Below, one piece after another: positions 23,327 through 36,419 of a stretch of 64,000 bases of DNA. This stretch comes from Pontibacter chinhatensis (GTDB lineage: Bacteria; Bacteroidota; Bacteroidia; Cytophagales; Hymenobacteraceae): assembly GCF_900113285.1 (NCBI RefSeq), contig NZ_FOOT01000004.1, positions 186,001-250,000 of the forward strand. Direction: 5' to 3'. The first letter of the stretch is position 1; each line of letters begins with the position of its first letter. Under the pieces are notes generated by a model that was not told the origin of the DNA, searched no databases, and was given only the letters and a program-made list of their open reading frames with translations. The translations under genes were made by a program, and so were the position numbers.

Positions 23327-24859
23327 GTGGGATGTAGTTCATGTTCTAGTGGCGGATGCAGCACCGGTTCCAAGCCGGGCGGCTGCAAAAGCAACGGCGG
23401 GTGCAGCACGGGAGGCTGTAACCGTTTAAACGTCTTCGACTGGCTCAGCGACATGGATATTCCAACGTCGTTTGAGGAGTTCGATATTGTAGAAATAAGA
23501 TTCAAGGGAGGTCGGAAAGACTTCTTTCGTAATATAAACCGCCTGGACCTGACCACTGGCGACGCCGTGGTTGTGGATGTGCCCAACGGCCATCACATCG
23601 GCTTTGTGTCGCTGAAGGGTGAGCTCGTGCGCCTGCAGATGCTAAAAAAGAAAGTGGATAATAATGAGGAAATCCGCAGCATCTACCGCATCGCCACAGA
23701 GCGCGACATGGAGAAGTTTAACGAGGCCCGCGACCAGGAAGGCACCACCATGTACCGCAGCCGCGAAATTATTCAGCAGCTTGGGCTGAAGATGAAGCTC
23801 TCGGATGTAGAGTACCAGGCCGACAGAAGCAAGGCCACGTTCTACTACTCTGCCGATGACCGCGTAGACTTCCGCGACCTGATCAAGAAGCTGGCAGAAG
23901 AGTTCAAGATCCGCATCGAGATGCGCCAGATTAGCCTCCGCCACGAAGCGGGTCGTCTGGGCGGTATCGGCTCCTGCGGCCGCGAACTGTGCTGCTCTAC
24001 CTGGCTTACGGATTTCAAAAGCGTTTCCACCACAGCGGCGCGTTACCAGAACCTCTCGCTCAACCCGAGCAAACTGAGCGGGCAGTGCGGGCGCCTGAAG
24101 TGCTGCCTCAACTATGAGCTGGAAACGTACATGGAGGCCCTGAAGGACATCCCGACCGTGAACCGCCCATTGCAGACACAGCAGGGAGACGCCATTCTTC
24201 AGAAAACTGACATCTTTAAACGCATGATGTGGTTTGGCTACAGGGGCGACAACAACTGGTATCCTGTGCCGGTAGAGCGCGTGCAGGAGATACTCGAGCA
24301 GAACGCGAAGGGCGTTGTGGTAGAGACCCTGTTGGTGGAGCCGGAAGAAGAGCCGAAGCAAAACGAGTTTGTGTCGCAGGTGGAGGGAAGCCTGGAACGC
24401 CTCGACGATAAGTTCAAGTCCAAGAAGAAGAAAAAGAAGAAAAAGAAAAAGCCGGCCAGCGCTGAGCAGGCACAGCCGCAGCAGGAGAAGGTAGCAGAGG
24501 CACAGCCGCCGAGAAAGGAAAGACAGGAGCGTCAGCAGGAGCAAGCGCCAGCCACGGGTGAGCAGCAGGAGCAGCGCTCGCGTCGCCAGCGCCCGCCGCG
24601 CAACCGCAACAAAAACAAAACGGCCCAGGAAGGCGGTGAGCCACGTGACAATGCGCCGGCGCCAAAAGAGCCACGCGAGCCCAGAGAGCGGCGCGAGAGG
24701 CGTGAGCCAAGAGCGGTGCCCCCGGCAGCTGAGGGTGCACCGGATGCAGGTGCCCAGCCACAGCAGGGTGGAGAGCAGAAGCCAAGGAGACGCTCACGCA
24801 AGCCTTTTAAAGGCAAAAAACAAGACCAAGGCAATAAACCACCACGCACTGATGCATAA
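23327..24859 (+). CDS. ricT: PSP1-domain protein, RicT (YaaT) homologue
   Basis: In Bacillus RicT joins RicA and RicF in an iron-sulfur complex that stimulates RNase Y and phosphorelay. This 510-residue protein has the PSP1 core (about 40-290), including GRELCCSTWL and GQCGRLKCCLNYELETY with the conserved cysteines. Two parts are unusual. Residues 1-31 hold six cysteines at 3, 6, 11, 20, 26 and 31 in Gly/Ser-rich sequence. The C-terminal 145 residues are low-complexity, starting with a long Lys run (about 366-376) and continuing rich in Gln, Glu, Arg and Pro. The start is GTG at 23327; MGCSSC is the normal N-terminus in the phylum. It overlaps gldH by 8 bases. Confidence 0.88.
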   Translation: MGCSSCSSGGCSTGSKPGGCKSNGGCSTGGCNRLNVFDWLSDMDIPTSFEEFDIVEIRFKGGRKDFFRNINRLDLTTGDAVVVDVPNGHHIGFVSLKGELVRLQMLKKKVDNNEEIRSIYRIATERDMEKFNEARDQEGTTMYRSREIIQQLGLKMKLSDVEYQADRSKATFYYSADDRVDFRDLIKKLAEEFKIRIEMRQISLRHEAGRLGGIGSCGRELCCSTWLTDFKSVSTTAARYQNLSLNPSKLSGQCGRLKCCLNYELETYMEALKDIPTVNRPLQTQQGDAILQKTDIFKRMMWFGYRGDNNWYPVPVERVQEILEQNAKGVVVETLLVEPEEEPKQNEFVSQVEGSLERLDDKFKSKKKKKKKKKKPASAEQAQPQQEKVAEAQPPRKERQERQQEQAPATGEQQEQRSRRQRPPRNRNKNKTAQEGGEPRDNAPAPKEPREPRERRERREPRAVPPAAEGAPDAGAQPQQGGEQKPRRRSRKPFKGKKQDQGNKPPRTDA

Positions 24860-25334
24860 AATAGTATGGATGTGGGCAGCAGCACTCGTGCTGCTGCTCT
24901 CCGCCTGCGACCCTGCCCGGGTATATGAGCAGAACATTGACTTGCCGCAAGGCAACTGGCAAATAGACAATGCGCCGGTTTTCGAGTTTGAGATAAAGGA
25001 TACGACCCAAGTATACGATGTATACTTCAACGTGCGCTACAACCTGAAGTATGATTATTATAACCTATACTTAAGGCACCAGCTCTACGATCCCGATAGC
25101 GTACAGGTCTCCTCGAAACTGCATGAGGTGCTGCTGATGGACTCCAAGACGGGCAAACCGCTTGGCAACGGATCCAGCGATATCTATGACCTGCAGGCGC
25201 TTGCCCTCGATAACGTAAAGTTTCCTAAACAGGGCATATACAAGCTCCGCCTGACGCAGTACATGCGCCGCGACCCCCTGCCTAATATACTGGCAGTTGG
25301 CGTGCGCGTAGCCACCAGCTCAGAAGCCGAGTAA
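24852..25334 (+). CDS. gldH: Gliding motility lipoprotein GldH
   Basis: GldH is a lipoprotein required for gliding in Flavobacterium. The 160-residue product has a lipoprotein signal MHKIVWMWAAALVLLLSAC with Cys-19 as the lipidated residue. The family body follows: VYEQNIDLPQGNWQIDN, FEFEIKDTTQVYDVYFNVRY, YNLYLRHQLYDPD and a GNGSSDIYDLQA segment. The start at 24852 overlaps the ricT stop by 8 bases; a longer in-frame ORF upstream reads the ricT low-complexity tail in another frame and is not real. Together with the T9SS cargo gene it implies a working gliding/T9SS machine encoded elsewhere. Confidence 0.88.
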   Translation: MHKIVWMWAAALVLLLSACDPARVYEQNIDLPQGNWQIDNAPVFEFEIKDTTQVYDVYFNVRYNLKYDYYNLYLRHQLYDPDSVQVSSKLHEVLLMDSKTGKPLGNGSSDIYDLQALALDNVKFPKQGIYKLRLTQYMRRDPLPNILAVGVRVATSSEAE

Positions 25335-25518: not shown

Positions 25519-26616
25519 ATGCAAAATACATTAATCATACTTGGGTTTGTTTTCTCCCTTTTTTCCTTTCTTCCCCTTATTTCGTCCCCACTCTGGTGGA
25601 TACGTGTACTCGATTTCCCTAGACTGCATGTAGCTATTCTGCTCACGCTGGTACTGGTGGCCTATGTCGCCCAGTATGGCGTACAGGATATCGGTGATGG
25701 TCTGATGCTGCTGGTATGGGTGGTAGCCTTGGTCAACGAACTGCGCTTTATTATCCACTTTACGCCGATGGTAAAGGTGGAGGCGCTGCGTACTGAACAC
25801 AAGATACCCGCCAATGCCTTCACGATGATGATCTCCAACGTGCGGATGGTGAACCGGGAATATGACAGGTTTCTAAAGCTTGTACAGGAAGTACACCCCG
25901 ACATGCTGATTATGAACGAGCCTGACCAGGCCTGGCACGACCACGTGTGCAAAGTGCTCGACAAGCACTACCCCTACTCCATCAAAAAGCCGTTAGATAA
26001 CACCTACGGCATGCTTTTCTGGAGCAAACTGAAACTGCACGAATCTGAAATCAGGTTTATGGTGGAGGACGACATTCCCTCGTTTTATACTTGCGTAGAG
26101 CTGCCCTCCGGCGATAAGTTTAGCCTGTTCACCGTGCACCCGCAGCCACCGCGCCTGATGCTGAACACCGAGACCCGCGAGGCAGAGCTGCTGCTGGTGG
26201 CCAAGCAGGCCAAGAAAGTCCCCTACCCTGCCGTGGTGGCCGGCGACCTGAACGACGTGGCTTGGTCTAATACGACGAAGCTGTTTAAGGAGATAAGTGG
26301 TTTGATAGACCCGCGCGTGGGCCGGGGCTTTTACAACACTTACAATGCCCACATTCCCATCTTCCGCTACCCCTTGGACCACGTGTTTTATGACCCGGCT
26401 TTCCGGCTGGTGAGTTTGCGGCGCCTGCCAGCGTTTGGCTCTGACCACTTTCCGATGCTTGTAACGCTAAACTACGAGCCGCACCGAGAGCACGAACAGG
26501 AGCACCCGCAAGCCGACCAGGAAGATAAGCAGGAGGCCAATGAGCTGATACAGGAAGGTTTGGAAAAAGGGGAAGAGCGCAACCAGGAAAAGCAAAACGG
26601 GAGCCGCGCCAAATAA
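25519..26616 (+). CDS. Membrane-anchored endonuclease/exonuclease/phosphatase family protein
   Basis: A 365-residue protein with three N-terminal membrane segments (about 5-25, 37-55 and 62-80) followed by an EEP catalytic domain. Catalytic positions are recognisable: SNVRM, the metal Glu in MNEPD, the His in TVHPQPPR, GDLNDVAWS and the final GSDHFPM. The substrate may be a nucleic acid, phospholipid or sugar phosphate; similar proteins are simply named EEP family. The last 35 residues are highly charged (Glu, Gln, Lys). It is monocistronic, with a terminator before the cold-shock gene. The domain is probably periplasmic, but topology is not certain. Confidence 0.85.
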   Translation: MQNTLIILGFVFSLFSFLPLISSPLWWIRVLDFPRLHVAILLTLVLVAYVAQYGVQDIGDGLMLLVWVVALVNELRFIIHFTPMVKVEALRTEHKIPANAFTMMISNVRMVNREYDRFLKLVQEVHPDMLIMNEPDQAWHDHVCKVLDKHYPYSIKKPLDNTYGMLFWSKLKLHESEIRFMVEDDIPSFYTCVELPSGDKFSLFTVHPQPPRLMLNTETREAELLLVAKQAKKVPYPAVVAGDLNDVAWSNTTKLFKEISGLIDPRVGRGFYNTYNAHIPIFRYPLDHVFYDPAFRLVSLRRLPAFGSDHFPMLVTLNYEPHREHEQEHPQADQEDKQEANELIQEGLEKGEERNQEKQNGSRAK

Positions 26617-26648
26617 AAAACCCGCCCAGGCTAACCTGAGCGGGCAAA
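26617..26648. terminator. Terminator between the EEP gene and csp
   Basis: Arms CCCGCCCAGG (26621-26630) and CCTGAGCGGG (26635-26644) pair with one mismatch. An A-run precedes and AAAAG follows, so it may act for both convergent genes. Confidence 0.7.
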
Positions 26649-26686
26649 AGACTTCTACAATGCCTTGCGGCTATTGACAGCTATAC

Positions 26687-26878
26687 TTAGATTCTCTCTA
26701 CGTTGATAGCGTTCAGACCTTTTTTACCATCTTTAAGCTCATAAGATACACGGTCGTTCTCACGAACCTCATGCGTCAGACCAGTCTGGTGCACGAAGAT
26801 GTCCTGATTCGTCTCATCATCAACGATAAAACCGAAACCTTTTGATACGTTGAAGAATTTTACTTTACCTGTCTTCAT
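26687..26878 (-). CDS. Cold-shock domain protein (CspA family)
   Basis: A 63-residue single cold-shock domain that binds single-stranded RNA/DNA and acts as an RNA chaperone. Both RNA-binding motifs are intact: RNP1 as KGFGFI at 13-18 and RNP2 as DIFVHQT. It starts MKTGKVKFFN, and the leader is AT-rich without a Shine-Dalgarno. A well-formed promoter lies 27-59 bases upstream. It is divergent from the FUS-like gene, with 442 bp between them. Confidence 0.95.
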   Translation of the reverse strand: MKTGKVKFFNVSKGFGFIVDDETNQDIFVHQTGLTHEVRENDRVSYELKDGKKGLNAINVERI

Positions 26879-26904
26879 TAGAATAAATAATTAATAAATA
26901 TGAG

Positions 26905-26937
26905 CAAAGGTAAGTATAACTTCCGGATAAGTAACAA
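26905..26937 (-). promoter_or_regulatory. Complete Bacteroidota promoter of csp
   Basis: On the minus strand TTG (26935-26937) and TACCTTTG (26905-26912) are separated by 22 bases, the best -33/-7 pair in the window. A leader of about 25 bases precedes the ATG. Confidence 0.65.
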
Positions 26938-27320
26938 GCCTCGGTGTAAATAAACAACAAAAACATCATCAGGTACTTAGCTCTTCCCTACTCCTCCACT
27001 ACTCCTACCAACCGTTTCAGCACAGTTATACTTTGCTTTGCCACTGATAGGCAGCGGCATTTGCCTTGCCTTTGCCGCGGCTAAAACCAGCTGCCTCAGA
27101 AAGAATACACATCGATATAGTAATAACCATGTGCCCTATGGTTCGTATAGCTAAAACGTTCTGTTACACTTGAAAACCGCTATTATCACGGAAACTTTAA
27201 GGGTAACGGCAACATAAATCCAGCGCCGGATTTTTACTCCCGACGGTGCTGGAGCAGTGCAAGACAGGGAGGAAAACAAACTTATTTAACGTCAACTATA
27301 AACTCTAGGAGATCAGAACT
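26938..27320. other. Long intergenic leader between csp and the FUS-like gene
   Basis: No ORF or tRNA is seen. One TATACTT copy lies near 27028. A stem-loop (27220-27228 with 27244-27252, CCAGCGCCG against CGGTGCTGG) lies 69 bases before the downstream start. A strong AGGAG at 27307-27311 sits 9 bases before that ATG. Confidence 0.5.
27307..27311 (+). promoter_or_regulatory. Strong Shine-Dalgarno of the FUS-like gene
   Basis: AGGAG with 9-base spacing to ATG 27321. Most genes in this window, as in the phylum, have AT-rich leaders without such a site, so this one decides the start and suggests high expression. Confidence 0.6.
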
Positions 27321-29132
27321 ATGAAAGACACTGAGAAAAATCAGAGCACGGATCAGAATTCCAACCTGTCAGGCACCTCATCAAGCGGCAGCATGACACC
27401 AAGCTCTTCCAGCTCATCGGGCAGCTTGTCCGGTACATCGAGCGGCAGCTCCACTACAACAGGCAGCTCCAGCTCCACCCCTAAGAGCGGCAGCTCTTCC
27501 AGCAAGACAACCGGCTCAACCAGCAAGTCTTCTACCACAAAAGCCAAGTCTGGCTCCACCTCTAAAAAAGAAGGCAAGTCTACCAGCAGCACATCAGGTA
27601 AATCCGGCAGCTCTGATTCCATGTCAGGCAGCTCCGATACTTCATCAGACCGTAATAGAAACCTCTCCGACCAGGGCAACTACGGCTCTATGTCGAGCGG
27701 CTCTTCGCAGAACTTCCAGGGCTCCGGCCAGGGCAACCAGGACTGGAATAGCCAGAACCAGGGCCAAGGCCAGAACCAAAACTGGAACAGCGGCCAGCAA
27801 GGGTACGGCAGCCAGGGTGGCTATGGGTATGGGTCGCAGCACGGTAATTACGGAGGCCAGAGCGGCTACGGTTACCAAAGCGACTATGGCTCCCAGAGCA
27901 ACTACGGTAGCCAGGGCTCCCAGGGCGGATACGGCTCGCAGGGCAACTATGGCTCCTCTCAGCAAGGAGGATGGGGCTCTCAGGGAGGCTATAACTATGG
28001 CAACCAGGGCGGCATGGAAGGAAACCGAATGCGCTCCCAAGACCAGCACTCCAGCGATATGTACGGCAGCCGCGGCGGCATGCAGGGCGGCTACCAGGAC
28101 CGTGAAGGCGACATGCAGGGCGGCTACGGCGTAATGAACGACCAAGGCGGCATGGGCCGTTACAACCAGCAGAGCGGCATGGGCGGCTACGGCAGCCAGG
28201 GCCGTTACGGCTCGCAGGGCGGCTACGGCTCTTCCTCACAGGAGCGTGGCATGCAAGGCAGCCAGGGCATGGGCAGCGGTAGCTACGGCTCCGGTATGTC
28301 TGGCTCATCAGGCAGAAGCGGCGGCTACGGCCAGAGCAGCGGCCAGGGCCATCAGCAGAACTACGGCCAGGGCGACTATGGACAGCGCATGGGCTACGGA
28401 CAGCAAAGCGGCTATGGCAGCCAAGGTGGCTATGGTTCCAGCTCAGGCATGTCGGGCAGAGGTAGCAGCAGCGGTATGCAGGGCGGCTACGGCGACAGAG
28501 ACCGTTACGGCTCTATGGGCTATGGCTCCAGCAGAGGCATGAGCGAGTACGACAGAGACGACCGCGGCTCACAGCGCGGCTGGGATTCGCAGAGCTCTAT
28601 GCAGGGCGGCTACGGCAGCCAGGGAGGTTATGGCTCCAGAGGCGGCTCCTATAACGATGAGTATCGCTCCGGCCGCTATGGCTCTCAGGGAAGCGACTAC
28701 GGCCAGCAGGACTACGGCAGAGGCGGCAGCAGCTACGGCTCTTCTTCCTCTCACGGCAGATCCTCTTCCGACAGAGACAGAGGCGGCTACGGCGATAGCA
28801 ACTATAGCAGCGGCATGAGCGGTGGCTATGGATATGGCTCAGGCAGTGGCATGCAGGGCGGCTACGGAGGCTCGTCAAGAAGCGGCATGGGCAGTGGCTC
28901 CAGCCATAGCGACTCCGGCCGTTACGGGCAGAGCGGCTACAGCTCTGGTGGGTATGGCCAGGGAGGCTATGGTGGCGATGAAAGCCGCTATGGGTCCATG
29001 GACAGCAGAACATCGTACTACAGCGATAACCGTGGCTCAAGCTCGCGCGAGAACTACCGTAACCAGGACGACTCTGACAGAGATCAGTTCCAGACACGCC
29101 GCAGCGACCGTTACCGTAACCTGGATGAATAG
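27321..29132 (+). CDS. FUS/FET-like low-complexity Gly/Ser/Tyr/Gln-rich protein
   Basis: I recognise no family. The 603 residues fall in three parts. Residues 1-110 are Ser/Thr/Gly with Lys (KTTGSTSKSSTTKAKSGSTS). Residues 115-585 are irregular repeats of GYGSQG, GGYGS and MQGGYG with Arg/Asp islands (DRDRYGS, RGGSYNDEYRSGR). The last 18 residues are charged (DRDQFQTRRSDRYRNLDE). I count about 53 Tyr, mostly flanked by Gly or Ser, only 4 Leu and 1 Val, and no Cys or Ile. This composition is that of prion-like domains of FUS and EWS, with scattered RG pairs. No signal peptide is seen, so it is probably cytoplasmic. It has a strong Shine-Dalgarno, a 5' stem-loop and a terminator, and is free of AAGTATA. 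Phase separation is inference. Confidence 0.85.
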   Translation: MKDTEKNQSTDQNSNLSGTSSSGSMTPSSSSSSGSLSGTSSGSSTTTGSSSSTPKSGSSSSKTTGSTSKSSTTKAKSGSTSKKEGKSTSSTSGKSGSSDSMSGSSDTSSDRNRNLSDQGNYGSMSSGSSQNFQGSGQGNQDWNSQNQGQGQNQNWNSGQQGYGSQGGYGYGSQHGNYGGQSGYGYQSDYGSQSNYGSQGSQGGYGSQGNYGSSQQGGWGSQGGYNYGNQGGMEGNRMRSQDQHSSDMYGSRGGMQGGYQDREGDMQGGYGVMNDQGGMGRYNQQSGMGGYGSQGRYGSQGGYGSSSQERGMQGSQGMGSGSYGSGMSGSSGRSGGYGQSSGQGHQQNYGQGDYGQRMGYGQQSGYGSQGGYGSSSGMSGRGSSSGMQGGYGDRDRYGSMGYGSSRGMSEYDRDDRGSQRGWDSQSSMQGGYGSQGGYGSRGGSYNDEYRSGRYGSQGSDYGQQDYGRGGSSYGSSSSHGRSSSDRDRGGYGDSNYSSGMSGGYGYGSGSGMQGGYGGSSRSGMGSGSSHSDSGRYGQSGYSSGGYGQGGYGGDESRYGSMDSRTSYYSDNRGSSSRENYRNQDDSDRDQFQTRRSDRYRNLDE

Positions 29133-29152
29133 CATTTGCTAAACCATCATAA

Positions 29153-29189
29153 AAAAATCCCCTCCCGAAATTATCAGGAGGGGATTTTT
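29153..29189. terminator. Bidirectional terminator after the FUS-like gene
   Basis: AAAAATCCCCTCC (to 29165) pairs with GGAGGGGATTTTT (29177-29189), followed by TTTG. It lies between convergent genes and ends both. Confidence 0.85.
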
Positions 29190-29226
29190 GTTTTTGCCGT
29201 GCTGATGTTCCGCTAAATTATAGACC

Positions 29227-30102
29227 TTACACAAAGCAGTCCCGGTGGTCCTGCAGAAACTGGCGCATGGTGTGTGGCTTGCGGCCAACAAGTTTCTCCA
29301 CCGTATCGGTGGTTTGGGTAAGTTTGCCTTCCTTTTGCAGCGTGTAAAGCTCCACCATGGCATTAGCCATAGTATCTGGCATGCCGGTGCCGGTCATCCC
29401 TTGCTTTATGGCGGCTTCCGTTAGGTCAATGTAGTCTACCTGCTTTCCGGTTACCTCGCTTAGCAGTTGCGCCACCTCGTAATTAGACAGCGCCTCCGGG
29501 CCGGTTATGTCATACGCTTTGCCTTCGTGCCCCTCGCCGGTTAGCACTTCTACTGCTACGGCGGCAATGTCGCGGGCGTCAACCAGACTCATCTTCCCAT
29601 CACCAGAGGCACCATAAAACTTACCCTCTTCCTTTATACTTTCCGCGTTATAGTTCACGTAGTTTTGCATAAAGGAGATGGGCCGCAGGAAAGTATGGCT
29701 GATGCCGCTCTCCTCGATATACTGCTCCACCTCGTGGTGCCATTGGCCCAACTGCAGGCCGGGCTTGGCATCGGCCCCGATAACGGATAGCTTCACAATG
29801 TGCTTTACGCCTGCCTTCCTGGCTTCATCTATCAGCGTTTTGGCCATTTGTACCTGGTCCAGGGTGAATGGGGTGAGCAGGAACACTTTGTCCACGTGCG
29901 TAAAGGCGGCGTGCAGCGAACTAGGATCCTCAAAGTCCATCTCTACGATCTCCACACCCGGCAGGCGTTTCAGGTTCTCGCCTTTAATAATGGAGTGCAC
30001 CCCTGCCCTCACCCGTATGTCGCCATCTAGCATGGAGAGTTGCTTTACCACCTCCCGTCCTACCGTGCCTGTAGCACCTGTTACTAATATTGTTATGTGC
30101 AT
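29227..30102 (-). CDS. NmrA-like SDR oxidoreductase
   Basis: A 291-residue atypical short-chain dehydrogenase of the NmrA/HSCARG group. The dinucleotide motif GATGTVG is at 9-15, followed by a NADP-type region and FLLTPFTLDQV, KHIVKLSVIGAD and ITGPEALSNYEVA, all typical of the group. The classical YxxxK pair is absent, as in NmrA proteins, so it may be a redox sensor or quinone/azo reductase rather than a true dehydrogenase. Monocistronic. Confidence 0.88.
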   Translation of the reverse strand: MHITILVTGATGTVGREVVKQLSMLDGDIRVRAGVHSIIKGENLKRLPGVEIVEMDFEDPSSLHAAFTHVDKVFLLTPFTLDQVQMAKTLIDEARKAGVKHIVKLSVIGADAKPGLQLGQWHHEVEQYIEESGISHTFLRPISFMQNYVNYNAESIKEEGKFYGASGDGKMSLVDARDIAAVAVEVLTGEGHEGKAYDITGPEALSNYEVAQLLSEVTGKQVDYIDLTEAAIKQGMTGTGMPDTMANAMVELYTLQKEGKLTQTTDTVEKLVGRKPHTMRQFLQDHRDCFV

Positions 30103-31360: not shown

Positions 31361-32482
31361 ATGAGAATAAATTTACTTTGCCTGTTTCTTTTACCTCTTG
31401 CTTTTAACTCACTTGCACAAAATCCGCTTCAACGAACCATCTCGCTTAAGAGAGTTGGAAGCGACAGCCTCCACATTCCTTTTAACGCTAACTATCATCT
31501 GACAGAGGACAGTTGCGCCCTGATAACAAGGCAGGCGCGCTATAACATGCAGCAGCGTTTTTTCTACGGTAAATTTAAAGACATCAGCCGCCAGGACACA
31601 AGCTTGGTACTGGCAGAAGGCTTTTACAACGCTAACGGCCTAATACACGGAAGCTTTGTCTCTTACTACCTTAACGGCAAGCCGCAAGCCCGCGGCAGCT
31701 ATAAAGAAGGGCAGCCCGACGGGGAGTGGCAGTTGTTTTACAACTCCGGCAATCCTAAGTTAACGTTTACGGCAGCAGACGGACGGCTTACCGTAAAAGA
31801 GGCCTGGAGTGAGGATGGCGCTAAAGTGGTAGACAACGGCACCGGAAACTACCAGGCACGCCAAGGCTTAATTATCTGGACAGGTAAGCTTCTAGAAGGC
31901 AAACCCGACGGCACTTGGGTAGCCACCTCGCATCTTGACAGGTCTAACAAAACGATGGCCACTGAGAAGTTTAAGGATGGCAAGTTTCTGAAAGGGACAG
32001 GCCCGCTCGGCAGCTATACCGACGCCTCCCGCATCGTATGGTTTGATAAAGCGATACTGCCTTTTCTAGCGGCCCAGGACATGCTTATTTCCTCAACTCC
32101 TTGCCATGTCCCAGCTCGCACGCAAATTGTGGGCGTTCAATATAAACACGGTCCGGATGGGTACAACGAAGAAATCAAAAAAGCTGTTGGTGCCTACCTA
32201 CGCAATATTGACTTAAAGCCTTATGAGAACGAGCTTCACCTAGAAGGAGAGGTATCCGAAGAAGGAAAGCTGGTAAACTTCCGATACAAAATTGCTTTTA
32301 GCGATAAAATTGCAACCGGTTTGATGAGAGTTCTGGCCAAGCTGCCTGCGTTAGAACCGGCTCTTGCTGACGGCAAGCCCATCCGCCAAGGGTTTAAAAT
32401 CTCGTTTAAGTTTTACGAAGGGGTATACAGTTTCAACTACCAGTTTCTCCCCATCAAGCTTACTCAACCCCAGGCTCTCTAA
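31361..32482 (+). CDS. MORN/YwqK-like repeat protein with TonB-C-like end
   Basis: A 373-residue exported protein. I use the ATG at 31361, giving a signal peptide MRINLLCLFLLPLAFNSLAQ; the frame also opens at a TTG ten codons upstream. Residues 70-160 hold MORN_2-type repeats (GFYNANGLIHGSFVSYYLNG, KEGQPDGEWQLFYNSG). The C-terminal 100 residues (GAYLRNIDLKPYENEL to ISFKFYEGVYSF) resemble a TonB C-terminal or energy-transducer fold. Such YwqK-like proteins in Bacteroidota are exported, and the antitoxin name is misleading. Its last 23 bases overlap the convergent helicase gene, inside the GAGTTAGA repeat. Confidence 0.72.
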   Translation: MRINLLCLFLLPLAFNSLAQNPLQRTISLKRVGSDSLHIPFNANYHLTEDSCALITRQARYNMQQRFFYGKFKDISRQDTSLVLAEGFYNANGLIHGSFVSYYLNGKPQARGSYKEGQPDGEWQLFYNSGNPKLTFTAADGRLTVKEAWSEDGAKVVDNGTGNYQARQGLIIWTGKLLEGKPDGTWVATSHLDRSNKTMATEKFKDGKFLKGTGPLGSYTDASRIVWFDKAILPFLAAQDMLISSTPCHVPARTQIVGVQYKHGPDGYNEEIKKAVGAYLRNIDLKPYENELHLEGEVSEEGKLVNFRYKIAFSDKIATGLMRVLAKLPALEPALADGKPIRQGFKISFKFYEGVYSFNYQFLPIKLTQPQAL

Positions 32483-35400
32483 CTCCCAAACGCTCTAACT
32501 CTATAACTTCCCCGGGTTTTTCCCAGAACTGGCGGCTGTAGATACGCTTGTAGGGCCAGTGGCGCTGGCGCAGCAGTAGCGGAATATCGGCGTGCGTGTG
32601 GCGAACCGAGAGGGCGCTAAAGTATAAATCATCGTCGGTGAGCACCACGCTTTGGTAGGTTGATTCCTTTACCACCGTCAGGTCGGCGAAGGGGACCTCG
32701 GGCTTCAGGTGCGGCACCTGTTGGGCGAGTATTTCCTTGAGCAGTGGCACGCGGGCAGGCATCCTTTCCTGCTTCGGTTCATACTCAAAATAGCGGCGGC
32801 TGACCTGCTGCGCATAGTGCAGGTAGTCTTTCAGGAGCTTTGGCCCGGCATGGGTGGTATGCTCTACCTGCAGCTGCTCTGCCCGGATGCTGCTGACGAC
32901 CACTACCTGTTGCTTGGCGCGCGTCACGGCCACATTCAGGCGGTTCTCGCCCCCGCTCTGGTTCAGGCTGCCAAACTGCATCGCCATTTTGCCCTTATCG
33001 TCCGGCGCGTAGCCCACTGATAGGATGATTACTTCCTTTTCATCGCCCTGGATGTTCTCGATGTTTTTGACCAGCACCGAGGCAGGTATAGTTATACTTT
33101 GCTCCTGGGCTGCTTCCTCCAACAGGTCCTGCACCAGCATCTGCTGGTTGTAGTTGAAGGTAATCACGCCCAGTTCCTCCTGCCCGGCCTGCAGGTACTG
33201 CAGCACCAGTTCCACCACGCGCTGGGCCTCGGCCAGGTTCTGGTTGTCCTGCCACAGTCCGTGCACTTTCACAAAGGTGATGGCGGGCTGACGCGCGTTC
33301 GCGTCCTGCAATTCTGGTATGAGTTCCAGCTTGTTTTGGTAGAAGTAGCGGTTCGAGAACTCGATGAGCTCGGGGTAGCGGCTGCGGTAGTGCTGCGTGA
33401 GCATGGTCTGCGGCAAGTATAACCCGCACAGCTCCAGCAAGGATTCCGCCGACAGTTCCTCTACTTCGTCTTCTCCTTCGGCCCCGTTCCAGCGGGCGCG
33501 GTAGATGTCGGAAGGCTTGAGCTGCTGCGCATCGCCGGCCACTACCACCTGCTTGCCGCGCAGCATGGCCGGGATGCCGGTTTCGGCATAACACTGCGAG
33601 GCCTCGTCAAAAATCACCAGGTCGAAGCAGCGCTCCAGCGGCAGCACCGCCGACACGGTCTCGGGCGAGGCCAGCCAACAAGGCACTAAGTCCAGCATCT
33701 CTTCGGAGAACAGGGCAAACAGCTTACGCAGCGGGTAGAGGCTACGCTTCTTGCTCACCTGTGCGTGCAGGCGGCGGTAGGTCACCGGGTTACCGAGGCG
33801 GTTTAGCTCGATGTCCTTGTACGCCTGCTCCCGGAGCCGCGAGAGCACGATTTCCTGGCTCAGCTCCTGCTTTTGCTGCAAGAGTAGTTGCAGTTCTTCC
33901 TCCAGTCGCTCCAGTTCGCCATTGCTCGGCATGCGTAGTTCCGGGTGTTGCCCCTCTAGTTCGTGCAGCCAGGCCAGGTAGAGGCTATTGAGTAGCAGCG
34001 CCTCGCCTTCCTCCGCCGTTTTGATAGGTTGTTCCAGCAGCAGCTCGGCTACTTTTCGCTCTGGGCCGGTGAAGGAAGTCAGCAATGCATCAAAGGCCAC
34101 CAGGGGCTCGAACACCTCCGGCAGCTCCAGCAGCAGGTCTTGTTTATACGTTTCGTCCTTTACGAGTCGTGAGATTTGCCCTTCTGTGAGCCATTGCAGC
34201 CACAATTTATACTTTGTTTCTGCCTCGTTTATACTTTGCGTAAGCGTCTGCAGGTGCTCGGGCAGCTGCACCAGACTCAACAGCTTTTCGTGCAGCACCT
34301 GCTCCTGGTGCAACTGGCGCAGCAGTTTGTGGGCCTGGATGGCGTCCTCCACCGCCTTCAGCTTTTGCAGTACCTCGCTGGGGTGTTGGGTAATCTTCAG
34401 GCCCAATTTTATGCGTTGGTTGATACCCTGCATCAACTCCACGGCTTGCTGGCGCAGCTCCAGGCGCCGCTGCAGTTCGCCTACGCCTGCCGCATCCAGC
34501 TCCAGTTTATACTTGGCCAGCGCCTTTTTCAGCAGCTGCTTCTCGGGGGCAAAGGCCCAGGTAAGGCGACCTAACAGCTGCTTTTGCTGCTCCTCATACT
34601 TGGCTACGGCAGATTTCACCGAAACTAAATCCTCGGTGGCAATGGCCGCGTCTGGGGCCGGACAAACCAGGTACAATTCCTTTAGTTGCAGCACCTGCTG
34701 CTGCAGTTCCTTTGGTTCTGCCTGTCGTTGCAGCAAAGGCCAAAGCGCCTGCTCTACCTCCTCCTGCGCCAGCAGCTCCTGCAGCCGGGTGACTTCGGCT
34801 AAGGCGGAAGTATAAGTCGGCAGCTCCTCCAGCGAGAACGGGTAGCCACTCAGGTCATTTATACTTCGCTGCAGCCTGGCATGCTCCTCCGGCAAGGACT
34901 CAATAACCTGCGCCAATTCCTGCCGCTCCTGGAAAGTATAGCTTTCCATGCTGCGGCGCTCTTTCCACACAAAGTCCTCCTTTTGCCAGGGGATGGCTTT
35001 TTGCAAATACTGGCGCAGGCGCGGCAGAAACTCCGTTACGGTCTCGGCAGTCAGGTTTTTAAAGTATGGGTTTAGCGGGATGTGCGGCTGTTGCAGGCTG
35101 CTGCGCAAGTATAACTCCTTGGGCGACCAGCCGCAGCGGCTCATGTTGAAGAGGGCGGTTTTAAAGGCTTGCAGCTTCTCCAGGTTTTTGTTGATGCCGC
35201 GGCTCACTTCCAGAAAGGTGCGGTCGGTGTAGATGCTGTTGAGCGCCAGGTTCTGCTTTTTATACTCTTCCAGACGGTCGATTTGCTCGCGCAGCTGGTT
35301 AAAAATCGCCTTGCGGTCGGCGTTGATGTCGTGCACAAGCGCGGCAAAAGCACCCAGCCCCTGCCGCGAGAGCCGCTGGTGCACGACATCAAGCGCGGCG

Positions 35401-36419
35401 CGTTTCTGGCTCACCACCAGCACCTTCTTGCCTCTGGCCGTAAAATCCGACACCAGGTTACAGATAAGCTGCGACTTGCCCGTGCCCGGCGGCCCCTGCA
35501 CCACCACCGACTGCCCCTGCTTTACCGCCTGCAGCGCCGCCTCCTGCGCCGCATCCAGGGCAAAGGCCGTGAAGGTATGCTGCGCCTGCGTGCTCAGGGT
35601 TATACTTTCCTCAGGCATGCCGAACAGCTGCTCCATTTCCTGCAGCTCGCCCTGCTCCAGCAAGGTATCATAATCGGTCAGTAAATAGGAGGCTGCCTGC
35701 GGGAAGATGCCCAGCACCGCCTCCTGCTCCAGTTCCAGCTGCCCCGGTTTATACTCCGCCTCGTAATCGGCTTTTTTATAATCTGTAAAGCGCTTGAGTT
35801 TATCACCGAAGAACTCGCGGCCGGCGTTTATACTGAGCTGCTGCTCTTTCAGGAGCTCGTATACCTTGGTGCGGAACTCCAGCGGGTGCTGCGGCAGCGT
35901 GCTCAGGTCCAGTTCCAGCAGCTCCTCGGCCAGCGGCGTGCCCATGTAGTGCGCGTAGGCCAGCAGAAAGCTCTGGTTAAACTGCGGCGGCTGCGCCTCG
36001 TCGGGTTGCAGTTCCCACTCCTGCGCCGCGTTTACCTGCAGCTTTACCGGGAAAAACAGCAGCGGGCTCCGCACGGCCGTACCGTCCGAGAACTTGCCGT
36101 GCACAAAGGGCCAGCCCAAGTATAACTCGCGGCTGCCGCGCTCCTCAAAAATCATCTCGGCCTTGCGCTTGATAAACCGCAGGCGGCGACTCACCGCAGC
36201 TACGGGTGCGTGGCGGCTATCGGCGTAAGGACTCAGGGGGATTTTCTTTCTGCCACTCAGCAGCTTCTCCAGCACCTCAAAGGCAGGCTTGCCGTTAACG
36301 AAGTCCAGCGCCTCCACGTCCTGGTGCAGCTCCCGGTACAGGCGCAGCAAGACCAGGGCCCTGTTGCCGGAGCCGAGGTTGAGGAGTCTGCGTCTGTAGT
36401 GTTTGAGAATGTCTTTCAT
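32460..36419 (-). CDS. DUF4011-type superfamily 1 helicase with C-terminal nuclease-like domain
   Basis: A 1319-residue protein. Residues 1-300 are the DUF4011 region (RRRLLNLGSGNRALVL, then LYLGWPFVHGKFSDG and RSPLLFFPV). Walker A GPPGTGKS is at 309-316. A helical insertion spans about 400-780. The second helicase half has DLVIFDEASQCYAETG, VVVAGDAQQLKPSD, HYRSRYPELIEFSN and RLNVAVTRAKQQVVVVSS. The last 100 residues align with the Vsr-like MTES_1575 domain, but its acidic core ECDG reads as TDDD, so nuclease activity is doubtful. Its final residues come from a GAGTTAGA repeat. DNA or RNA substrate is unknown. It could be a standalone repair or defence factor; no partner gene is adjacent. Confidence 0.88.
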   Translation of the reverse strand: MKDILKHYRRRLLNLGSGNRALVLLRLYRELHQDVEALDFVNGKPAFEVLEKLLSGRKKIPLSPYADSRHAPVAAVSRRLRFIKRKAEMIFEERGSRELYLGWPFVHGKFSDGTAVRSPLLFFPVKLQVNAAQEWELQPDEAQPPQFNQSFLLAYAHYMGTPLAEELLELDLSTLPQHPLEFRTKVYELLKEQQLSINAGREFFGDKLKRFTDYKKADYEAEYKPGQLELEQEAVLGIFPQAASYLLTDYDTLLEQGELQEMEQLFGMPEESITLSTQAQHTFTAFALDAAQEAALQAVKQGQSVVVQGPPGTGKSQLICNLVSDFTARGKKVLVVSQKRAALDVVHQRLSRQGLGAFAALVHDINADRKAIFNQLREQIDRLEEYKKQNLALNSIYTDRTFLEVSRGINKNLEKLQAFKTALFNMSRCGWSPKELYLRSSLQQPHIPLNPYFKNLTAETVTEFLPRLRQYLQKAIPWQKEDFVWKERRSMESYTFQERQELAQVIESLPEEHARLQRSINDLSGYPFSLEELPTYTSALAEVTRLQELLAQEEVEQALWPLLQRQAEPKELQQQVLQLKELYLVCPAPDAAIATEDLVSVKSAVAKYEEQQKQLLGRLTWAFAPEKQLLKKALAKYKLELDAAGVGELQRRLELRQQAVELMQGINQRIKLGLKITQHPSEVLQKLKAVEDAIQAHKLLRQLHQEQVLHEKLLSLVQLPEHLQTLTQSINEAETKYKLWLQWLTEGQISRLVKDETYKQDLLLELPEVFEPLVAFDALLTSFTGPERKVAELLLEQPIKTAEEGEALLLNSLYLAWLHELEGQHPELRMPSNGELERLEEELQLLLQQKQELSQEIVLSRLREQAYKDIELNRLGNPVTYRRLHAQVSKKRSLYPLRKLFALFSEEMLDLVPCWLASPETVSAVLPLERCFDLVIFDEASQCYAETGIPAMLRGKQVVVAGDAQQLKPSDIYRARWNGAEGEDEVEELSAESLLELCGLYLPQTMLTQHYRSRYPELIEFSNRYFYQNKLELIPELQDANARQPAITFVKVHGLWQDNQNLAEAQRVVELVLQYLQAGQEELGVITFNYNQQMLVQDLLEEAAQEQSITIPASVLVKNIENIQGDEKEVIILSVGYAPDDKGKMAMQFGSLNQSGGENRLNVAVTRAKQQVVVVSSIRAEQLQVEHTTHAGPKLLKDYLHYAQQVSRRYFEYEPKQERMPARVPLLKEILAQQVPHLKPEVPFADLTVVKESTYQSVVLTDDDLYFSALSVRHTHADIPLLLRQRHWPYKRIYSRQFWEKPGEVIELERLGVREPGVE
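32477..32503 (-). repeat. Inverted copy of the GAGTTAGA / TTTGGGAGTTAG repeat
   Basis: Read on the minus strand it gives GAGTTAGAG-CG-TTTGGGAGTTAGAG, matching the repeats at 31048-31085. It encodes the C-terminal ELERLGVRE of the helicase and brackets the YwqK-like gene. Confidence 0.7.

Follow-up and report, generated by a model that had tools for sequence, protein, structure and literature searches.

A tyrosine-rich bacterial protein of predicted disorder with FET-like composition and an apparent stress-type promoter in Pontibacter and its relatives

The window analysed here, a stretch of 64,000 nucleotides of Pontibacter chinhatensis DNA, carries on its forward strand an open reading frame (27321..29132, stop included) whose 603-aa product was likened in an initial annotation to the low-complexity domains of the FET proteins FUS, EWSR1 and TAF15. 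The question raised by this locus is whether the frame is a real gene and what role such a protein may play in a bacterium.

The gene and the composition of its product

The ORF starts with ATG, is preceded by AGGAGAT and is followed by a probable terminator read by eye (29156..29186, +), a 10-bp stem-loop and then T, whose loop exceeds the length permitted by the scan and which is hence unlisted by it. Nei-Gojobori dN/dS values were 0.06-0.15 for eight Pontibacter pairs and 0.06 against the nearest ortholog, that of P. mucosus DSM 100162 (protein 97% identical), with a maximum of 0.33 (L177/L179) over all 15 pairs; the ORF is a real gene under purifying selection. A search of its own genome gave one match.

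The protein contains 154 Gly, 148 Ser, 62 Gln, 53 Tyr, 37 Arg, 36 Asp, 28 Asn, 25 Met, 20 Thr, 11 Lys, 10 Glu, 5 His, 4 Leu, 4 Trp, 2 Pro, 2 Phe, 1 Ala and 1 Val. Ile and Cys are absent and Ala, Val, Ile and Leu total six, in agreement with the initial description of a protein rich in Tyr, Gln and Ser with almost no aliphatic residues. Among the 44 window ORFs of at least 250 aa, a mechanical set that includes shadow ORFs, it ranks first for low GRAVY (-1.49; next -1.07), for Tyr fraction (8.8%; next 7.8%) and for scarcity of Ala, Val, Ile and Leu (1.0%; next 20.4%).

Searches of Pfam (E<=0.1) and NCBIfam with the protein gave no match, nor did a Pfam search with four orthologs from other genera. 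AlphaFold2, run on 29 aligned sequences, finds no fold; the mean pLDDT was 37.4, no residue reached 70 and 593 of the 603 residues fell below 50. The protein is thus predicted to be wholly disordered.

Export by an uncanonical route had been named in the initial annotation as an observation that would speak against a cytoplasmic condensate. A hydrophobic export segment was looked for and none was found in the 603-aa protein, whose highest 15-residue Kyte-Doolittle mean is -0.30. The 69 orthologs, with start codons chosen by script, are likewise without a hydrophobic segment, their largest 15-residue mean being 0.98, and 0.75 in the first 70 residues. Repeats rich in Gly, Ser and Tyr resemble structural materials, and it is on this general ground that the protein could be read as an adhesive, silk-like or amyloid component of the surface or matrix, exported by an unusual route; excerpts of the curli amyloid literature mention Pontibacter. 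The orthologs without a hydrophobic segment, the negative Pfam search and a promoter motif common with genes for presumably cytosolic proteins (see below) stand against this reading, which we regard as highly improbable.

Layout of the protein and tyrosine patterning

The N-terminal Lys/Ser/Thr-rich tail (residues 1-105; 27321..27635, +) holds all 11 Lys and neither Arg nor Tyr, and the Tyr/Arg-rich prion-like body (residues 121-603; 27681..29129, +) holds all 53 Tyr. When the tail is taken as everything preceding the first Tyr, the long-clade means for Lys are 8-18 on the tail side and 0-3 beyond it; for Arg they are 1-5 and 17-41, respectively. In the group formed by genus g23 and Adhaeribacter (genera are cited by label, g23 to g27) the tail is near neutral, with 18.3 Lys and 2.0 Arg vs 19.7 Asp plus Glu; it is not net basic there, which weakens the idea that the tail binds polyanions.

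Alignment A1, made of 31 of the 37 Pontibacter sequences, has 234 columns conserved at 80% or more. It defines, on the forward strand, conserved block 1 (residues 161-191; 27801..27893), block 2 (residues 220-264; 27978..28112), block 3 (residues 394-450; 28500..28670), block 4 (residues 551-580; 28971..29060) and a conserved C-terminus, RRSDRYRNLDE (residues 593-603; 29097..29129). Aligned identity is 91% in the blocks and 43% in the linkers. Such conserved linear blocks indicate selection on more than composition, so that the FET-like reading of the initial annotation, sound in respect of composition and patterning, is incomplete.

The alignments and the reading of loci also revealed a hallmark, GSRGGSYNDEY (residues 438-448; 28632..28664, +). 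The form GS.GGSYND.Y showed no variation across the 17 rows of alignment A3. Variants were GGSYDDEY in one Pontibacter locus (L031) and GGSYGEEY, GGSYNEE and others in g26 and g24. Some loci were found with seeds including GSRGGSYND, and the presence of the hallmark there is not independent evidence.

The 37 Pontibacter copies range from 565 to 717 aa and carry 49-66 Tyr each. On average 46% of these Tyr lie in a G/S-Y-G/S context vs 26% expected from composition, and 67% have Gly, Ser, Asn or Gln on both sides; the enrichment claimed at the outset was confirmed, while its wording that most Tyr lie in the G/S-Y-G/S context was slightly overstated. The scattered RG dipeptides also claimed there are present, RG and GR averaging 17 per copy.

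Aromatic residues are more evenly dispersed than in shuffled sequences (ratio about 0.55, z < -1.64) in 57/57 long orthologs, and all 57 passed again under a second null in which aromatics were moved only among similarly flanked positions; these orthologs are related by descent and do not represent 57 independent tests. The sticker-and-spacer pattern proposed for the protein is supported. Measured as gap-length CV, the evenness of Tyr spacing is a weaker signal than by windowed dispersion, with z at -1.3 in the 603-aa protein and a mean of -0.5 in g23 and Adhaeribacter.

In the linkers of alignment A1 the Tyr count is sub-Poisson (CV 0.17 vs Poisson 0.20). Lys is also below Poisson, and the counts of Gly, Ser, Gln, Asn, Arg, Asp, Thr, Phe and Met are above it; the CV of Ser (0.16) is close to that of Tyr, yet far above its own Poisson value of 0.09. 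Long orthologs, with 24-66 Tyr each, thus hold their Tyr number across linkers that share less than half of their residues.

Distribution, gene neighbourhood and loss of the tyrosine-rich body

A single-sequence search (E<=0.001) found the gene in 36/36 same-genus relatives and in 0/22 other genomes of the order; one record of the genus bears the name Botryobacter ruber. In a profile search 62 of 204 family genomes matched, consisting of 50 Pontibacter (own genome included) and 12 g25; the no-match rows shown, which leave out 122 genomes, include no member of the genus. A three-genera profile matched 55/390 genomes of the order, all of them Hymenobacteraceae and in 3/129 genera, and is not exhaustive, as it overlooks g24, g26 and g27, which carry the gene. 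The family is Hymenobacteraceae according to the labels on named rows, and g25 is presumed to be Hymenobacter, since a Hymenobacter guriensis row sits among its rows.

Direct reading of the RicT-gldH locus in 20 genomes found the protein in 15/17 family members (g23 2/2, g24 2/2, g26 4/4, g27 4/4 and g25 3/5) and in 0/3 genomes of other families. In G126 and G170, the two g25 genomes lacking it, the locus stretch also has no match to the cold-shock gene described below. Genes coding for NmrA-like and SdiA-like proteins lie downstream in most loci, not all. One of the g25 genomes lacking the gene has transposase-like ORFs, identified by eye, directly after gldH (L185:2405-3204). In the window, the listed GldH ORF (24558-25334, +) starts inside the RicT ORF; since the GldH domain covers only residues 121-251, its true start is probably later than listed.

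A cold-shock-domain gene (csp; 26687..26878, reverse strand; Pfam CSD 2e-18) is divergent from the disordered-protein gene, as the initial annotation had pointed out, and synteny indicated that this neighbour is frequent and not obligatory. It was found in 57/66 scored gene-carrying loci (50/51 plus 7/15) and, among Pontibacter, in 34/34 scored of the 36 fetched; L031 and L054 were left unscored, the gene-finding motif having failed there. It is absent from all eight loci of g26 and g27 (four each) and from L131, and the disordered protein is retained in all of these.

An RNA- or nucleoid-linked factor acting with the cold-shock protein, for instance as an RNA chaperone partner, would account for the frequent linkage and would agree with the Lys tail and the Arg-rich body. 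The persistence of the protein where csp is gone argues against such a factor, as do the lack of any Pfam or NCBIfam match in the protein and the upstream regions of csp, none of which (0/36) carries the motif found upstream of the disordered-protein gene; we consider this explanation quite improbable. Cold-shock co-regulation of the two genes was dropped on the same two grounds, the motif-free csp upstreams and the missing csp in two genera.

Short orthologs occupy the same locus in 12 g25 genomes, the loci having come from the profile search. They have 10-14 Tyr in 297-378 aa and a net charge of about -24. They keep the locus, the promoter motif and the hallmark (GGSYNDAY in L101) and are without the Lys tail and most of the Tyr; under the two nulls, 6 and 8 of the 12 pass the aromatic-dispersion test. 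Homologues that retain the Tyr pattern exist, namely the long orthologs, and the FET-like body claimed at the outset is real in these and lost in the short ones. As the short copies demonstrate, such a body can be lost.

A RicT tree of 73 rows indicated that the short Tyr-poor label needs at least three changes. All of them fall on the g25/g27 side, which also has long forms; many forks of this tree are open and long branches meet, and the count of changes serves as a guide. The likeliest history is an ancestral long Tyr-rich protein that was reduced more than once.

Promoter motif, candidate regulon and possible role

Alignment of the 37 Pontibacter upstream regions revealed AATAACC-N15-CGTATAG, and the window carries an exact match, AACC-N15-CGTATAG, at 27125..27150 (+). 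This stress-type element had escaped the initial annotation. The -10 element is separated from the start codon by 170 nt (27151..27320, +), with the AGGAGAT ribosome-binding site near the end. The first ~22 nt after the -10 element (GCTAAAACGTTCTGTTACACTT, window 27151-27175) are conserved in most Pontibacter upstreams and could represent either a leader element or a site for a regulator.

The relaxed motif AAC-N15-17-CGTAT precedes the gene in 37/37 Pontibacter copies and in 31/32 copies from elsewhere (g23 plus Adhaeribacter 6/6, g24 2/2, g26 4/4, g27 4/4, and in g25 long copies 3/4 and short copies 12/12). Upstream of six neighbouring genes it occurred in 1/170 cases, these controls being scored in 19, 36, 36, 34, 35 and 10 loci, since a hit counted only if it began close to the start of the query. 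The motif is bipartite (-35/-10) and lies, with nearly constant spacing, ahead of the start codon. Both its spacing and the CGT of its -10 element recall ECF sigma promoters, and AAC-N15-17-CGTAT is a putative ECF promoter.

Three further genes carry the motif in Pontibacter. It lies upstream of a hydrophilin gene in 26/26 (26 genomes), of a DUF892/YciF gene in 27/30 (26/26 best matches) and of an SDR oxidoreductase gene in 26/29 (26/26 best matches), and the reversed motif gave 0/26, 3/30 and 0/29, respectively, and 2/170 in the controls; upstream lengths were 330 nt for the disordered-protein gene and controls and 260 nt for these three. The DUF892 target has a Pfam match of 1.3e-57 and the SDR target matches NCBIfam PRK06701 above cut-off. 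Paralogs mostly have no motif (DUF892 1/4 with it, SDR 0/3). The hydrophilin is a 123-aa hydrophilic protein (L192:1553-1924) with GRAVY -1.52 and 13% Gly.

In the own genome AACC-N15-CGTATA has 9 sites vs 3 for the reversed pattern. Five of the 9 precede the genes for the hydrophilic protein, the SDR, the DUF892 protein, the disordered protein and a PAS protein; the remaining four look like chance or are unclear. The likely targets other than the disordered-protein gene start 25-55 nt downstream of the motif. With spacing 14-16 there are 4 AACC..CGTATAG sites vs 2 reversed, one of them, of spacing 14, lying 27 nt before a glycosyltransferase-like gene named by eye. A two-mismatch scan of the window was at chance level (14 vs 12 expected), so only the exact window copy counts. 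The PAS-kinase-like protein, named by eye, is on the reverse strand of L199 (motif ~1500, ORF from 1550), 25 nt after an exact AACC-N15-CGTATA, and could be a regulator within the same regulon.

Assignment of a sigma factor by autoregulation failed. All 20 loci with a Sigma70_r2 match were scanned, the upstream regions of 18 of them were read, and no convincing autoregulatory copy was found, similar sites lying 200-290 nt upstream of three sigma genes. A sigma-70 promoter was also rejected, a consensus scan of 26600-29260 giving 3 sites vs 1.6 expected and none directly before the gene. An Rfam scan of 26500-29300 found nothing.

DUF892/YciF proteins and PRK06701-type SDRs are stress-associated in other bacteria. 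Judged from its upstream region, the disordered-protein gene apparently belongs to a stress regulon common to the hydrophilin, DUF892 and SDR genes, and because of this shared motif a stress role is the best-supported functional statement that can be made for the protein. No such regulon appeared among the matches listed for the general stress response with ECF factors in this group, as far as the excerpts of that literature extend.

We give about even credence to a self-associating scaffold or protectant of the cytosol, disordered throughout, that is made under stress. In this reading an ECF-type sigma factor would turn on the gene together with those for the hydrophilin, the DUF892/YciF protein and the SDR oxidoreductase when the cell faces a general stress, for instance drying, osmotic or oxidative. 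The Tyr/Arg body of ~480 residues, with its evenly spaced Tyr stickers, would then self-associate into a condensate or gel. Outside this sticker network the Lys-rich tail would hold polyanions such as RNA, DNA or ribosomes, and the conserved motif blocks would recruit or position a specific partner. Alternatively, these blocks could serve binding that has nothing to do with condensation.

Self-association through Tyr and Arg is suggested by analogy, because of work on FUS and reports on regular aromatic spacing. In passages of PMC5704491, Tyr in G/S-Y-G/S motifs of FUS promote phase separation by number, not position, and in passages of PMC11321997 regularly spaced aromatics promote it. As far as the former passages go, Tyr position is immaterial in FUS, so even spacing alone is no proof of function. 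Tyr stickers are dispensable in the 12 short orthologs, which have 10-14 Tyr and yet the same locus and motif.

The strongest rival is an ordinary hydrophilin, a soluble, water-holding and client-shielding stress protectant without functional condensation, whose Tyr-richness would be a lineage flavour. Excerpts of PMC4190154 define hydrophilins by Gly >6% and GRAVY < -1; the window protein has 25.5% Gly and a GRAVY of -1.49, and 69/69 examined orthologs have Gly >=13% and GRAVY <= -1.09. The promoter motif in common with the 123-aa protein and the 12 short Tyr-poor orthologs also fit this type. The even and sub-Poisson Tyr of the long orthologs seem more constraint than a generic filler needs, and so do the Lys/Arg segregation and the rigid blocks. 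As a full account the hydrophilin reading is unlikely, though less so than the other two rivals, and scaffold and hydrophilin may both be true in part.

FET proteins carry a folded RRM and a RanBP2-type zinc finger. The bacterial protein shares with FET domains the richness in Gly, Ser, Tyr and Gln, disorder, Tyr in a small-polar context, evenly dispersed aromatics and RG dipeptides. It differs in its predicted disorder throughout, with no RRM or zinc finger found by Pfam, NCBIfam or pLDDT, and in its Lys tail, its rigid conserved linear motifs and the few Tyr of some orthologs. A phmmer search of all PDB chains detected no homology, with 0 hits at E<=10; the correction for low-complexity bias limits this test. 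Its Tyr density is also lower, 53 in 603 aa vs 27 in the 214-residue FUS IDR according to the passages of PMC5704491. The likeness is one of composition and patterning, not of homology; by this analogy the protein may work like a FET domain and is not a member of the family.

From hydrophilins and LEA-like desiccation proteins, with which it has disorder and a promoter motif of another hydrophilic protein in common, the protein differs in its patterned Tyr and Arg and its motif blocks. Bacteroides Rho and Caulobacter PopZ also have disordered regions tied to phase separation (excerpts of PMC12455900 and PMC9312465); they differ from the present stand-alone, Tyr-rich protein, in which no folded domain was detected. 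The excerpts of these bacterial phase-separation reviews describe no such protein, and the word tyrosine has 0 occurrences in the main text of both. The gene was absent among the matches listed in searches on Tyr-rich low-complexity or prion-like bacterial proteins, prokaryotic low-complexity regions, Pontibacter and disorder, and Hymenobacter stress transcriptomes, in a literature that takes in few subscription papers; the matches listed in one of these searches do not mention Hymenobacter. On this evidence the combination of a FET-like polymer grammar with a stress-type promoter, in a bacterial protein that stands alone, looks new.

Somewhat more tentative than the scaffold itself is its evolutionary extension, in which the Hymenobacteraceae independently evolved a stand-alone FET-like former of general-stress condensates, whose Lys tail and Tyr/Arg body would gel the cytoplasm or nucleoid, and the sticker body was stripped more than once on the Hymenobacter side with locus and promoter kept. 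If this holds, bacteria would have arrived convergently at sticker-and-spacer stress condensates. The motif also exposes an apparent stress regulon in Hymenobacteraceae. Tyr-rich, intermediate and Tyr-poor orthologs with one locus and one motif would be ready natural variants, making it directly testable whether stickers are function or elaboration; the Tyr-poor short orthologs are a natural experiment that keeps the plain hydrophilin alive.

Elsewhere in the window, the reverse strand at 32460-36419 codes for a 1319-aa AAA_11/AAA_12 helicase-like protein with a DUF4011 match.
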